A stretch of 64,000 nucleotides of DNA from Verrucomicrobiales bacterium (GTDB taxonomy: Bacteria; Verrucomicrobiota; Verrucomicrobiia; Verrucomicrobiales; DEV007), in NCBI GenBank assembly GCA_029213265.1, contig JARGNG010000007.1, positions 62,001 to 126,000 of the forward strand, in the 5' to 3' direction. How positions within the stretch are numbered: the stretch's first letter is position 1; each line of letters opens with the position of its first letter. The translations under genes were made by a program, and so were the position numbers. Below the pieces are notes generated by a model. That model worked only from the letters and a program-made list of their open reading frames with translations, did not search any database and was not told where the DNA came from. This document shows, one piece after another, positions 1,882 to 28,441 of this stretch.

Positions 1882-4608
1882 ATGTATTCTGATTCCGAAA
1901 CTGCCTCCTCCGCCAAAGTCTGCACCCTGACACTCGACGGGGAACCCGTGGAATTTCTCGAGGGCGAAACCCTCTACGAAGTCTCTGAGCGCTATCAGCG
2001 GGAAGTACCGACGCTCTGTTACGATGACCGCCTCGAAGCGTTCGGCGCTTGTCGTCTTTGTGTCGTTGAGGTGGAGGGAATCCGCAATCCGGTTGCCTCC
2101 TGCACCACGCAAGCGACCGATGGAATGGTGGTCAAGACGAAGACCGAGGCGATCGAGAAACATCGCAAAACCCTTCTCGAACTGGTCGCTTCGGAGAACC
2201 GCAACGTCGACGTCAACAAGCTGAGCGGATACGCCTCGCAGGAACTCACCATTCTCGTCGATCGCTACGATGCCCGGACCGGACGTTTCCAGGGGGAAAA
2301 GTCAGGCACAACGAATACGAAGGACAAAAACCCGTTTATTCTCCGCGACTATGACAACTGCATTTCCTGCTATCGATGTGTTCGCGTCTGTGCAGAGCAG
2401 GAAGGCGATCACGCCATCAATGTGATGAATCGCGGGTTTCATACCCAGATCATTACTGAATTTCAAAACGACCTCCGCGACTCCAGTTGCACCTTCTGCG
2501 GCCAGTGTGTGCAGACCTGCCCGACCGGTGCCCTCGGAGACAAGAAAGCACTGCGGGATGCGGACACCCCGGGTGAAGTCAAGAAAACCCGCACGATTTG
2601 CCCTTACTGCGGTGTCGGTTGTTCCGTTGATTTGTTGAGCAAAGGGGACAAGATTGTCGGCGTGCAACCGGCCATGGACGGCCCCGCCAACGAAGGAGCG
2701 CTTTGCATCAAAGGGCAGTTTGCTTTCGATTTCATTCAGAACGCCGACCGGCTCAAAAAGCCGATGATCCGGCGGGACGACGGCGAACTGCACGAATGTG
2801 AATGGGACGAGGCGCTCGACTTCGCCGCCGCAGGATTCGCCAAAGTCCGGGACAAGTTTGGACGACACAGCGTCTACGGGGTCGCCTCAGGAAGAGCGCC
2901 CCACGAAGCCGCCTACACGATGCAGAAATTCATCAGGGCGAGCTTCGGGACCAACTACATAGACAACTGTTCTCGAGCCTGACACGCTCCTACAGTTGCC
3001 GGTCTGGCAGCTACTATCGGTCGAGGTGCAATGAGCAATCCGCTTGCGGATATGGAGAAACCTGATGTCATTTTTGCCATCGGCACCAACATGACGGAAT
3101 GCCATCCCGTCGCCGCAACGAGATTAAAAAAGGCGATTACCAACGGTGCCCGTATGGTCGTGGTAGATCCGCGGAAAACTACCCTCGCGAAAATGGCGGA
3201 CCTGCATTTGCCGATCCGGGTGGGATCGGATGTCGCACTTCTCCTCGCGATGGCGCATGTAATTCAGCGGGAAGGATTGATTGATGCCAAATTCATCGAA
3301 GATCGCACCGCAGAGTCGGAAGTCTTCCTGGAGCACATCAAACAGTTCACTCCCGAATGGGCTTCAGAAATCTGCGAAGTCCCTGCTGCCGACATCGAAA
3401 AGGCGGGATTGATCTACGGAGAAGGAAGTCCCGGCGCCATTTACTACACCCTCGGAATTACCGAGCACATCTGCGGAGTCGACAACGTGCAGTCACTTTG
3501 CAACCTAGCCCTCATGACGGGCAATCTTGGTCTCGAGGGGGGCGGAATCAACCCGATGCGCGGCCAGAATAACATTCAGGGTGCCGGAGATTGCGGGGCC
3601 GTGCCCAACAACTTTCCGGGTTTCCAGCCCTGCAATGATCCTGCCAGCGCGGAGAAATTCACGAAGCTTTACCAGCGCGAAATCGACTGTGAACGCGGCA
3701 TCACGAAAGTGCGCGCTCTCGACACCTGCGGGAAAGGGATCCATGCCATGATCATTGACGGGGAAAATACCGTCGTGAGCGACCCGGACCGGAATCATTG
3801 CGAGCATGCGCTCAAGAGTCTTGACCACCTCGTCGTTATTGATATTTTCATGACCGAAACTGCGGAGCTGGCCGATGTCGTTTTCCCGGCCACGGCCTGG
3901 GGCGAAACGGACGGAGTCCAGACAAATACCGAACGGCGGGTCCAACGCCTGCGCCAGGCCGCTCCTCCTGTAGGTGAATCCAAGCCGGACTGGTGGATTG
4001 TCAGTGAAATCGCCAAGCGGATCGGAACCCCGGGTTTCGAATATGATTCCGCGAAAGAGATCTTTAACGAATTGTGCGAACTCAGCCCGATCTACAAAGG
4101 GCTGGATTGGGACCGCATTGAAGACAGCGAATACCAATGGCCCGTTCCGGAGAAAGATCATCCAGGAACTCCGCGCCTCCACGAGAAAGAGTTCAAGAAC
4201 GGACGCGGTGTCTTCAAAGTCATTGGTTATCGAGATCCTGCCGAAGTGATTGATGAGCAGTTTCCCATCTGGCTCACAACCGGCCGCCGCCTGCAGGCCT
4301 ACCACACCAGAACCCAGACGGGACGGAGCGCCGGGATTGAATACCTTCTGTCCGAAGAATCTCTCGAGGTGAATCCAGAAGACGCCGAAAAATGGGGCCT
4401 CACCCACGGCGGAATGGCGAAAATGTCGAGTGCTCGCGGTTCGATTGAAATCCAGGTCAAAGTGACTGACATGTCTCCTCCCGGAACGGTCTTCACTTCC
4501 TTCTCGTTTGCCAATGTTCCCGTCAATATTCTGACCGGCTCCGGATACGACCCCGTGACCGAGACAGCAGAATTGAAGGTCTGCCCTGTCAGCGTGGTGC
4601 CGATTTAG
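1882..4608 (+). CDS. fdhA: Formate dehydrogenase alpha subunit, selenocysteine-containing (in-frame UGA at 2980-2982)
   Basis: One 908-residue reading frame with UGA as codon 367. N-terminal NuoG-like [2Fe-2S] domain (C46-x10-C57-x2-C60-x13-C74), two ferredoxin-type [4Fe-4S] clusters (C160/163/166/170 and C203/206/209/213), then the Mo/W-bis-MGD catalytic domain opened by a [4Fe-4S] motif (C240, C243, C247, C275). The residues around the UGA, NCSRA-U-HAPTVAGL, align with the active-site selenocysteine region of E. coli FdhF (CCARV-U-HGPSVAGL), and translation continues in frame through GAMSNPLADME. A SECIS-like hairpin follows directly. A conventional caller would split this into 1882-2982 and 3031-4608. 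It should oxidise formate to CO2 at a Mo or W centre and pass electrons to the upstream NuoEF-like subunit and NAD+. The sel genes needed for recoding are not in this window. Confidence 0.93.
2980..3028 (+). promoter_or_regulatory. Bacterial SECIS element with the recoded UGA
   Basis: The UGA (2980-2982) is followed after 18 nt by GGTCT (3001-3005), the loop of a 6-bp hairpin with arms GTTGCC (2995-3000) and GGCAGC (3006-3011). Lower pairings CAC/GTG (2983-2985 with 3026-3028) and CTC/GAG (2987-2989 with 3023-3025) can extend it. E. coli fdhF has the same GGUCU loop at the same 18-nt distance, where SelB binds. The pairing is seen directly; SelB recognition is inferred. Confidence 0.85.
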
Positions 4609-7138: not shown

Positions 7139-7282
7139 TTAGTCTTCGTCTTCCTCGTCCCGGAGTTTACGGAGCAGTTTTTTGATGTCGCGTGCTCCGA
7201 GAATGGTGACCAGAATCGCCATCAGGGAGAAGGCTCCCACCACGGCGATCAAGACGACTTTCCACAACAATTCCCAACTCAT
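7139..7282 (-). CDS. 47-residue single-span membrane protein coupled to the SSS transporter
   Basis: ATG at 7282 overlaps the TGA of the upstream symporter gene in an ATGA junction (7279-7282), which predicts translational coupling. The product has one hydrophobic helix (about residues 5-28, KVVLIAVVGAFSLMAILVTI) and a charged tail (KKLLRKLRDEEDED). I do not recognise a named family. The position suggests an accessory peptide of the symporter, comparable in layout to small subunits that follow some sodium:solute symporters. The frame is short but has a clear start, stop and coupling. Confidence 0.7.
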   Translation of the reverse strand: MSWELLWKVVLIAVVGAFSLMAILVTILGARDIKKLLRKLRDEEDED

Positions 7283-8859
7283 TCCGCTTCCTTCCTGGTA
7301 TCCGGTTTCAGCAACGATCCCGCAATGGTCAGTACAAGGGCGATACTGACGGTAATCAGACCGATCTGCGGACTGGTCAATATCTCACGCCATTCTCCCG
7401 CCCCATTCAAAACCTTCAGCCCGACCGCCTTCTGGATCGGCTCAAGACCGAGGAGCATCAAGAGCCCTGACAGAAGCCCGAGGAGCGCTCCAAACGAACT
7501 CGTTCTCTTCCAATACACTCCGAGCATAAGAACGACAAACGCTCCCGTAAAATAGATACCGCCCGTCACCGCCATGTAGTCCCAGATATCCTCCCGCCCC
7601 TTATAGAAGACGCTCCAGTAGAGGACATACCCTCCCATCAAAACGATGCAGATTCGGGTAATCTTGACGCGGGCTTTGGTCGACAGCTCCCTTTTCCAGA
7701 GAGGCGCCACAATGTCCTGAGTAATCACCGAACTCCACGTCAGGAAATAGGAATCGTGAGTCGACATGAAGGCCGCAATCATTCCTGCTGTGATCACCCC
7801 GATCAAAATCGGAGGCAGGAGACGCCCCATGAACACGGGCATCGCATACAGATTACTGAGCGGTTCCACCCCTTCTTCGACGGAAAAAAACAGCTCCTTC
7901 AAATCCGCACCAGCCGGCATCGAGGTAATGAAGACGAGCGCACAGATCCCCCAGAAATAAGGAAAGAGAAAACGCACCGTGAAGGAAATCGAAGACCAAC
8001 AATATTGCTTCTTTACGGCTGCCTCGCTTTCCATCGTGAGAGCCCGGGAAACCGCAGTGGGCCAAACTGCGCTTCCGATCAGTCCGGCCGTAATGACCAT
8101 CCAGCAGACATATTCCCAGCCGAAGCTTCCGTCACTCACGGTGGGGTCGAATCCAGCCGGTCCAAGGGTGTCGTGAACGGTTTGAAAAATCGTTCCCCAA
8201 CCCAGCTTCGAAATAGCGATCCAGGTTCCCGCGAGAAGCCCGAAGGAAAGCACGACGAACTGCACGTAGTCAGTCAGGATCACGGAAATCATTCCGCCGA
8301 GAGTGGTGTAGATCAAAACGAGAAGCAGCAAACCGACCATGACCCATTTGAGCGCCTCCCCGTCGCTGGCCATTCCGGTCACTCCGACAATGAACATCGA
8401 CCCGACCTTCAGGAAGAGGCCCATATTCAGGACCCCGGCAAAGACGAGAAGAAACCCGCCGAGGATACGAATTTTCCGGTTGAACCGCTTTTCGTAAAAT
8501 TCCGGGATTGTGAGAACCCGCATGCGGCGAAGCGGCCCGACGATAAATCCTGTCAGTCCCACAAAGAGGGTCGCAACACCGGCAATGAGCGCGATATGAA
8601 AGGCGGCAAATCCTCCCGTAAACCCTTTCTGCGCCGAATACATCACGGTCACGAGGCCAAGCTCCGTTCCCGTCATCGTCGCCACTCCCAGCCACGGCCC
8701 GATCTTTCGTCCGGCCCCGATGTAGTTCACCATCGAACCGGCGTAGCGCTTTACCATGATCCCGATCCCGAGAGAAATCAGAAGATACACAATGACGATC
8801 ACCCAATCGGCAGTGCCGAAATTAGTTTGGTCAAAGGCACTCTGGACAGCATCGGTCAT
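7279..8859 (-). CDS. Sodium:solute symporter (SSS family)
   Basis: 526 residues with about 13 hydrophobic helices. SSS-type features include the N-terminal VIVYLLISLGIGIMVKRYAG, the segment GPWLGVATMTGTELGLVTV and the middle-domain GGMISVILTDYVQF. Members couple Na+ entry to uptake of sugars, carboxylates or similar solutes across the inner membrane. It starts 14 bp after the DUF3604 gene and overlaps the next gene by 4 bp, so 11276 to 7139 is probably one operon. The substrate cannot be assigned; the surrounding sugar isomerase and oxidoreductase genes favour a sugar or sugar acid. Confidence 0.88.
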   Translation of the reverse strand: MTDAVQSAFDQTNFGTADWVIVIVYLLISLGIGIMVKRYAGSMVNYIGAGRKIGPWLGVATMTGTELGLVTVMYSAQKGFTGGFAAFHIALIAGVATLFVGLTGFIVGPLRRMRVLTIPEFYEKRFNRKIRILGGFLLVFAGVLNMGLFLKVGSMFIVGVTGMASDGEALKWVMVGLLLLVLIYTTLGGMISVILTDYVQFVVLSFGLLAGTWIAISKLGWGTIFQTVHDTLGPAGFDPTVSDGSFGWEYVCWMVITAGLIGSAVWPTAVSRALTMESEAAVKKQYCWSSISFTVRFLFPYFWGICALVFITSMPAGADLKELFFSVEEGVEPLSNLYAMPVFMGRLLPPILIGVITAGMIAAFMSTHDSYFLTWSSVITQDIVAPLWKRELSTKARVKITRICIVLMGGYVLYWSVFYKGREDIWDYMAVTGGIYFTGAFVVLMLGVYWKRTSSFGALLGLLSGLLMLLGLEPIQKAVGLKVLNGAGEWREILTSPQIGLITVSIALVLTIAGSLLKPDTRKEAE

Positions 8860-25142: not shown

Positions 25143-25332
25143 TCGATTACGCGGGAAATCTGGTCAATCCGGGCCAAAGCCGACCAGTCCGCGAAGACGC
25201 AGCCCTGCCTTACGTAGCTTCCTTTCACTCGGCTGTGACAAGGGCAAGTAAGGGCCGAACGAATCCAGAACCCACTTCCGCGATCTCCTTGACGAGGTGT
25301 CCCTTTTCGCGCATGCTCCGTATCGTTACTAA

Positions 25333-25418
25333 GACGGGGGAGCGCAACAACGCCGCTGAGATTGCCAAACGGCAAGACCCTTCGAACCTGACGCAGGTAA
25401 TGCTGCCGCAGGGAGTCC
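25333..25418 (+). promoter_or_regulatory. TPP riboswitch (THI element) upstream of thiC
   Basis: The conserved THI-box parts are present in order: GACGGGGGAGC at the 5' side, GCTGAGAT (25355-25362), ACCCTTCGAACCTGA (25377-25391) and GGTAATGCTGCCGCAGGGAG (25396-25415). The CTGAGA motif, the GAACCTGA motif and the closing GGGA strand match the TPP-sensing fold. It ends about 110 nt before the thiC ATG. Ligand binding is expected to repress thiC when thiamine pyrophosphate is plentiful. I could not identify an expression-platform hairpin with certainty. Confidence 0.92.
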
Positions 25419-25458
25419 CTATGAAACTCTTCCAAATTTACCATCACCGCCCGATTGA

Positions 25459-27713
<2,255 letters not shown>

Positions 27714-27796: not shown

Positions 27797-28441
27797 TCAG
27801 TGCTTCCCTGCGTCGGTTCCTCTCTCCAGCAACGCGGCAATGAACACTGCGATGTAGAGAACCCCGCTCAACCCATTCAGGATGGCTATGAGCCTTGCCA
27901 GCGACGTTGTCGGGACAAAGTCCCCGTACCCAACTCCAGTGAGCGTAATGAAACTGTAATACAAAAGCTCAGTGGGAGTAGCGGCCTCCCCGGTTGAGGC
28001 ATGCGCAAACGCATCCGGATGAAGCATCCTCGCCCAGGCGGACTGAGACATCCAGAAAATCCCGAGGAGCAGATATCCGGCAATCCCTCCCAATATCCTG
28101 TCCCCTTTCGAAACTCCCGGATTGAAGAAGCAATGATTCACGACGGCACGAAAAAGGAGGGCAAAGGAGAATGCGAAAGCAGAAACCGAAACCACTTCGC
28201 ATAGGGGAACCCCTGCTCCGAAATTACCAAATCCAACCCCAACCAGCCCTATCAAGAGAAAACTGCTCAGCCATTTGCGGCTGTTGATAAGGGAATATCC
28301 GCCCGCGCCCAGAATGAGCAGGTAGAGCCAGACCGGCCAGACGGCATCTTCCCGGATTTCATCCCAGACGACCGTAGAAGCCAGTAGAAGGATCTCCCCT
28401 ACCAGAAGAATGCGCGACTGATACCGGTTTCCTTTGTTCAC
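27797..28441 (-). CDS. Two-pore-helix potassium-channel-like protein (Ion_trans_2)
   Basis: 214 residues. It starts at a GTG (28439-28441) that overlaps the TGA of the RND gene in a GTGA junction, so translation is probably coupled. Several hydrophobic helices come first, then a pore region with the K+ selectivity filter TLTGVGYGDFVP (filter around residues 166-172), and a last helix LSGVLYIAVFIAALLERG. No cytosolic RCK/TrkA domain is present. The family conducts K+ across the inner membrane. Coupling to an efflux pump gene is unusual; it may balance charge or share induction with the pump, which is inference. Confidence 0.85.
   Translation of the reverse strand: MNKGNRYQSRILLVGEILLLASTVVWDEIREDAVWPVWLYLLILGAGGYSLINSRKWLSSFLLIGLVGVGFGNFGAGVPLCEVVSVSAFAFSFALLFRAVVNHCFFNPGVSKGDRILGGIAGYLLLGIFWMSQSAWARMLHPDAFAHASTGEAATPTELLYYSFITLTGVGYGDFVPTTSLARLIAILNGLSGVLYIAVFIAALLERGTDAGKH

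Follow-up and report, generated by a model that had tools for sequence, protein, structure and literature searches.

A formate dehydrogenase gene with an internal UGA codon, almost certainly read as selenocysteine, in a Verrucomicrobiales bacterium

Results

The fdhA gene and its neighbour

The window, by which we mean the whole stretch of 64,000 nucleotides that was analysed (contig JARGNG010000007.1 of GCA_029213265.1, positions 62,001 to 126,000), belongs to an assembly of 5.87 Mb in 182 contigs that is 93.5% complete. Near its beginning lies one open frame of 908 codons with a TGA as its sole internal stop, preceded by a gene for a fused NuoE-NuoF protein (Table 1).

Table 1. Features of the fdhA locus in the window and selenium-related genes elsewhere in the same genome
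Feature	Position	Strand	Evidence
fdhB-like partner, NuoE (2Fe-2S) + NuoF (FMN) fusion, 558 aa	140..1816	+	Pfam, NCBIfam, 7e5z_B
fdhA, formate dehydrogenase alpha subunit, 908 residues, UGA predicted as Sec367	1882..4608	+	Frame, TIGR01591, Pfam domains, PDB relatives
Rfam SECIS_3 (RF01989) match	2977..3035	+	Covariance-model scan; 43.8 bits, E 4.2e-9, gathering score 63
UGA codon, predicted selenocysteine, residue 367, context SRA-U-HAPTVAGL	2980..2982	+	Alignment with 1aa6; TGA in 110/110 loci
SECIS-like hairpin, 7-bp stem 2994-3000/3006-3012, loop GGTCT 3001-3005	2994..3012	+	Pair counts, silent-site conservation, fold
tRNA-Sec, anticodon tca	Contig C79:2579-2673		61.5 bits, cut-off 47; also ARAGORN
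selA	Contig C141:36231-37592		514.7 bits, cut-off 267.9
selB	Contig C141		307 bits, cut-off 242.25
selD with one in-frame TGA	Contig C141:37819-38748		379.2 bits, cut-off 125
PF00578 UGA frame, motif FTGG-U-TAEC	L158 nt 456 (contig C88)
PF00578 UGA frame, motif GFW-U-PFC	L159 nt 435 (contig C159)
PF00578 UGA frame, motif SASW-U-APC	L160 nt 492 (contig C121)

An earlier note on this DNA had proposed that the two ORFs found here are one formate dehydrogenase gene. This was confirmed, as the frame is broken by the UGA at 2980-2982 alone and its product, translated for the programs with Cys standing for UGA (Sec), matched TIGR01591 (formate dehydrogenase alpha) over residues 238-905 with 744.3 bits against a curated cut-off of 666.25. 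Based on Pfam, FdhA has a NuoG-like Fe-S part at the N terminus, followed by the molybdopterin catalytic part. Residues 14-907 aligned with 7vw6, a formate dehydrogenase alpha subunit that differs in having Cys at the active-site position, where the window's FdhA has the predicted Sec.

The upstream gene, on the same strand, ends 65 nt ahead of fdhA. The NCBIfam models for NuoE and NuoF matched it below their curated cut-offs, and residues 20-549 of its product matched 7e5z_B, the fused beta subunit of Methylorubrum FDH1, a formate dehydrogenase with tungsten (7vw6/7e5z). A NuoG-like alpha N terminus and a NuoE/NuoF-type partner, as in enzymes of the FdsABG/FDH1 type, were thus both found. With the fusion directly upstream, a two-subunit NAD-linked formate dehydrogenase is the best reading of the locus, and the window's enzyme is likely of this kind.

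The fusion was expected to be a constant neighbour of fdhA, but this was not borne out by the relatives. We compared 80 named loci, the best 80 of 207 relatives (identity 68-90%), which are biased to close kin because they were found with patterns from the window's protein. Five of them had too little upstream sequence. Among the 75 with at least 1.8 kb upstream, only 25 had an fdhB-like gene, in 15 cases within 400 nt upstream and in 10 up to 1.2 kb away or overlapping by a few nt. In the fetched stretch of the other 50 such a gene was not found, and none of the Poribacteria loci among the 75 had one. The partner in these 50 is therefore encoded elsewhere or different, and the NAD pairing may not extend to the whole clade.

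The 50 loci in which no such neighbour was found would also fit a Sec enzyme whose role in the cell is to reduce CO2, or one that uses a different electron acceptor from NAD+, and the solved relatives of FdhA also include 7qv7, a subunit of a hydrogen-dependent CO2 reductase, and 9t1s, an F420 enzyme. For the window we consider this unlikely, given the adjacent NuoE-NuoF fusion on the same strand and a NuoG-like N terminus that aligns nearly end to end with 7vw6 and 6tg9.

The UGA codon

When FdhA was aligned with E. coli FdhH (1aa6), the UGA fell on the X (= Sec) of the E. coli enzyme and the flanking residues were similar, in agreement with the earlier note, which had placed the codon at the active-site Sec/Cys position between E. 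coli-like flanks. FdhH matches only residues 234-908 of FdhA; it has no NuoG-like N terminus and belongs to a different complex. TGA at codon 367 and zero other stops were observed in 110 of 110 loci (L021-L130), which comprise 30 from the window's family, the window itself (L021) included, and the 80 named loci; many genomes occur twice, and the 110 loci give 80 distinct sequences of 75 nt. They include MAGs labelled by their submitters as Poribacteria, Gemmatimonadota, Planctomycetota and Latescibacterota. With TGA in every locus, a sequencing error is very unlikely.

Elsewhere in the window UGA serves as an ordinary stop: among 34 ORFs chosen greedily, each of at least 150 aa, TGA closes 16, and the 5' half of fdhA is counted among these. 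The earlier note had named two such genes, thiC and an SSS gene, presumably the ORFs at 25528-27459 and 7279-8859. Both do end in TGA, but the ATGA overlap described for the latter was not confirmed, and a 4-nt ORF overlap was seen at 28438-28441 instead. A TPP riboswitch (25326-25431, + strand, 67.3 bits) lies upstream of ORF 25528-27459. The view that the recoding is local needs widening, because selD and three thiol-redox frames of the genome also have an in-frame UGA.

A constrained hairpin after the UGA

The hairpin begins 11 nt past the UGA and its GGTCT loop 18 nt past it; the earlier note had put a 6-bp hairpin with this loop 18 nt on. Six stem pairs form in all 80 distinct sequences and the outer seventh (2994/3012) in 65. 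Pairs 2997/3009 and 2994/3012 each join silent third codon positions. The former is T-A in 60 sequences, C-G in 16 and G-C in four, hence paired in 80/80, compared with a mean of 60.4 and a maximum of 68 in 5000 shuffles; for the latter, 65/80 compares with a shuffled mean of 32.2 and maximum of 45 (5000 shuffles). Codons 373-375, which hold the loop and inner stem, were the only three of 302 codons in which the commonest codon reached at least 97% in the 80 distinct sequences (mean share 43%; codons with a conserved amino acid and four or more synonyms were counted). The hairpin is constrained beyond protein coding, and it is these comparative counts that settle it.

Pairing holds in 96.6% of cells in an alignment that takes 25 of the 80 sequences, compared with 17-68% in slid versions, and four of the seven pairs are invariant. 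The 25-nt hairpin alone folded with -10.1 kcal/mol (z -2.73; 2/200 shuffles equally good), and a longer stretch of 53 nt folded no better than its shuffles (z -0.31; 58/200 equally good). A scan with SECIS covariance models, proposed in the earlier note, gave a divided answer: SECIS_3 matched the region with a low E value, but its score stayed below the gathering threshold, so that the element resembles the family and is not filed under it. The Rfam scan of the whole window at gathering thresholds gave no SECIS. The E. coli FdhH gene carries a stem-loop just past its UGA with a GGUC-type loop, and such a loop is present in the Rfam SECIS_2 consensus.

Selenocysteine machinery and other selenium genes

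The earlier note had made the selenocysteine reading depend on the presence of selA, selB, selD and a tRNA-Sec. All four were found over their cut-offs in the same assembly, and the reading withstood this test. The in-frame TGA of selD has the context CAG-U-ASK, which fits the selenophosphate synthetase motif UxxK as listed in the text of PMC13188914. The best hairpin following this UGA is also closed by a GGTCT loop. The tRNA-Sec model gave nine matches in the genome; in the eight examined with ARAGORN a tRNA was found in seven, with tca only in tRNA-Sec, and none in L005.

These results bear on two other ways of reading the UGA. An unusual tRNA could read it as Cys or another ordinary residue with no selenium involved, and Cys does stand at the same position in 22 of 24 paralogues read; we consider this very improbable in a genome that has the sel machinery with its tRNA-Sec, where the anticodon tca occurred only in tRNA-Sec among the eight matches examined and the hairpin is under constraint. 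That the UGA is a true stop, of a decayed gene or of the first of two polypeptides with the second starting at ATG 3031, can be dismissed almost entirely, since against the mechanical ORFs 1882-2982 and 3031-4608 and an ATG widespread in relatives stand the lack of other stops in all 110 loci, the conservation as protein of the 16 residues from UGA to ATG (HAPTVAGLAATIGRGA), an ACG in place of that ATG in locus L073, an alignment with the E. coli Sec enzyme that runs straight across the site, and covarying silent positions in the hairpin.

The sel locus (C141:25001-44000, minus strand) holds selD, selA, a four-gene ABC transporter and then selB. The binding protein of the transporter matched TIGR04553, 'putative selenate ABC transporter substrate-binding protein' (262.1, cut-off 250). 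Two genes diverge from this locus, for SenB (312.8, cut-off 300) and for a protein resembling SenA (411.4, slightly short of its cut-off, 420); they suggest that selenoneine is made. Near the tRNA-Sec gene (C79:1-8000) we found a NifS-type cysteine desulfurase and MnmH, the tRNA 2-selenouridine synthase (446 bits, cut-off 266).

A search of the genome with AhpC/TSA PF00578 gave 18 matches, three with an in-frame TGA in redox-type motifs (Table 1). These three frames are likely candidates for further selenoproteins. No Rfam SECIS was found in them at E <= 0.1, and against Sec in L158 speaks its nearest PDB relative, 3drn, in which the residue at the place of the UGA is Ser rather than Cys. Searches of the same genome with PF02627, PF00255 and PF10262 gave two matches, neither with UGA, one match below cut-off and zero matches, respectively.

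Distribution and phylogeny

In the window's family, 74 genomes were compared: 32 had the UGA gene, 18 a full-length stop-free paralogue and none had both. The paralogues (32-38% identity) had Cys in 10 of 10 read, one each from 10 of the 18 genomes. The stop-free set was restricted to full-length matches, which excluded G050 (398.8 bits over residues 234-905) along with shorter matches. The 32 genomes include G020, in which two contig ends carry the gene, and G038, with the N-terminal piece as a separate match; both are outside the 30 family loci.

In raw counts that ignore kinship, selA exceeded its cut-off in 29 of the 32 genomes with the UGA gene, in 3 of the 18 that have the stop-free paralogue and in 15 of the 24 others, hence in 29/32 with the UGA gene versus 18/42 without it. 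The UGA-gene genomes without selA over cut-off were G046 (59% complete, weak match), G047 (54%, none) and G065 (90%, 91.7-bit fragment). With selA over cut-off in 47 of the 74 genomes, the Sec trait is common in the family. Neither the UGA gene nor a full-length stop-free paralogue was present in 16 genomes, 15 with selA over cut-off and G035 with a fragment, in which other selenoproteins would presumably sustain the machinery. SelD had a TGA-containing frame in 40 of the 74 genomes and a stop-free frame of about 750-800 aa in 10, with both in G026; in G032, SelD exceeded its cut-off but had no TGA, and selA was not matched.

A sample of the phylum (288 genomes, at least 80% complete, matches at E <= 1e-200) gave an FdhA match in 15 genomes: the window's own, L134 (75% identity, TGA, a member of the clade) and 13 at 38-42% identity, which had Cys in 12 cases and TGA in one (L139). 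The latter, a 41%-identical formate dehydrogenase from G128 in another family of the phylum, has its TGA at the same codon and falls among Cys paralogues in the tree. It is possibly a separate Sec case, arisen by an independent Sec/Cys switch.

A quick tree was made of 61 rows: the window, those named loci in which 800 or more residues aligned (every fifth for Poribacteria), L134, L139 and 12 of 22 Cys rows. The program flagged long branches. The tree was used solely for the split between Sec clade and the rest. The 48 Sec-clade rows, window included, formed one group (SH-aLRT 100). A single branch separates the 31 rows that submitters labelled Verrucomicrobiota from all others. On this tree Sec/Cys requires two changes or more, with L139 sitting among Cys rows.

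Discussion

It is almost certain that the two adjoining frames form a single gene, that this gene encodes a formate-oxidising enzyme containing selenium, and that its internal UGA is read as selenocysteine. We also hold the account as a whole to be very highly probable, namely a single fdhA gene, Sec367 inserted by means of SelB and the GGUCU hairpin, and NAD-linked formate oxidation with the NuoE-NuoF subunit. As known from the respective families, SelB bearing Sec-tRNA-Sec would bind the hairpin in the message and selenocysteine would be inserted at residue 367, where it would ligate the active-site Mo or W. Formate, the substrate to which the families point, would then be oxidised to CO2, most likely by FdhA and the fused NuoE-NuoF subunit together, with electrons most likely passing through Fe-S clusters and FMN to NAD+, the acceptor predicted on the same grounds.

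The enzyme type is well known: FdhA was the most widespread bacterial selenoprotein in a 2016 survey, with 822 organisms (PMC5029168). A close likeness is seen in planctomycete P1 from Porphyra umbilicalis, whose Sec fdhA, reported in 2016, shares an operon with nuoEF and for which horizontal transfer was inferred (PMC4807772). As in the window, the UGA-encoded Sec FdhA of P1 goes with nuoEF and lies apart from the Sec-insertion genes. By description, however, nuoE and nuoF are genes in P1 and one fused gene in the window, and P1 belongs to the Planctomycetes, the window to the Verrucomicrobiota. It is the host group in which such enzymes are little described. The term 'verrucomicrobi' is absent from the main texts of PMC5029168, PMC13188914, PMC12013277, PMC5322559, PMC9312934 and PMC5330540, which treat bacterial selenium use, candidate selenium genes and tRNA-Sec, yet the Sec trait is common in the window's family.

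We favour, with some reservation, a wider picture in which the gene belongs to one clade of Sec-only formate dehydrogenases, spread across MAGs labelled Verrucomicrobiota, Poribacteria, Gemmatimonadota and Planctomycetota. As none of the 74 family genomes has both forms, the clade would mark a switch between selenium-based and selenium-free formate oxidation among close relatives, the stop-free paralogue having Cys where read. The genome itself would apparently have three selenium pathways (Sec, selenouridine and probably selenoneine), no fewer than five UGA genes and, within the sel locus, a putative selenate ABC transporter. Under the standard code fdhA is cut into two, which conceals both the enzyme and its trait. 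The mutually exclusive stop-free paralogue would offer a natural comparison of Sec and Cys in one reaction in close relatives.
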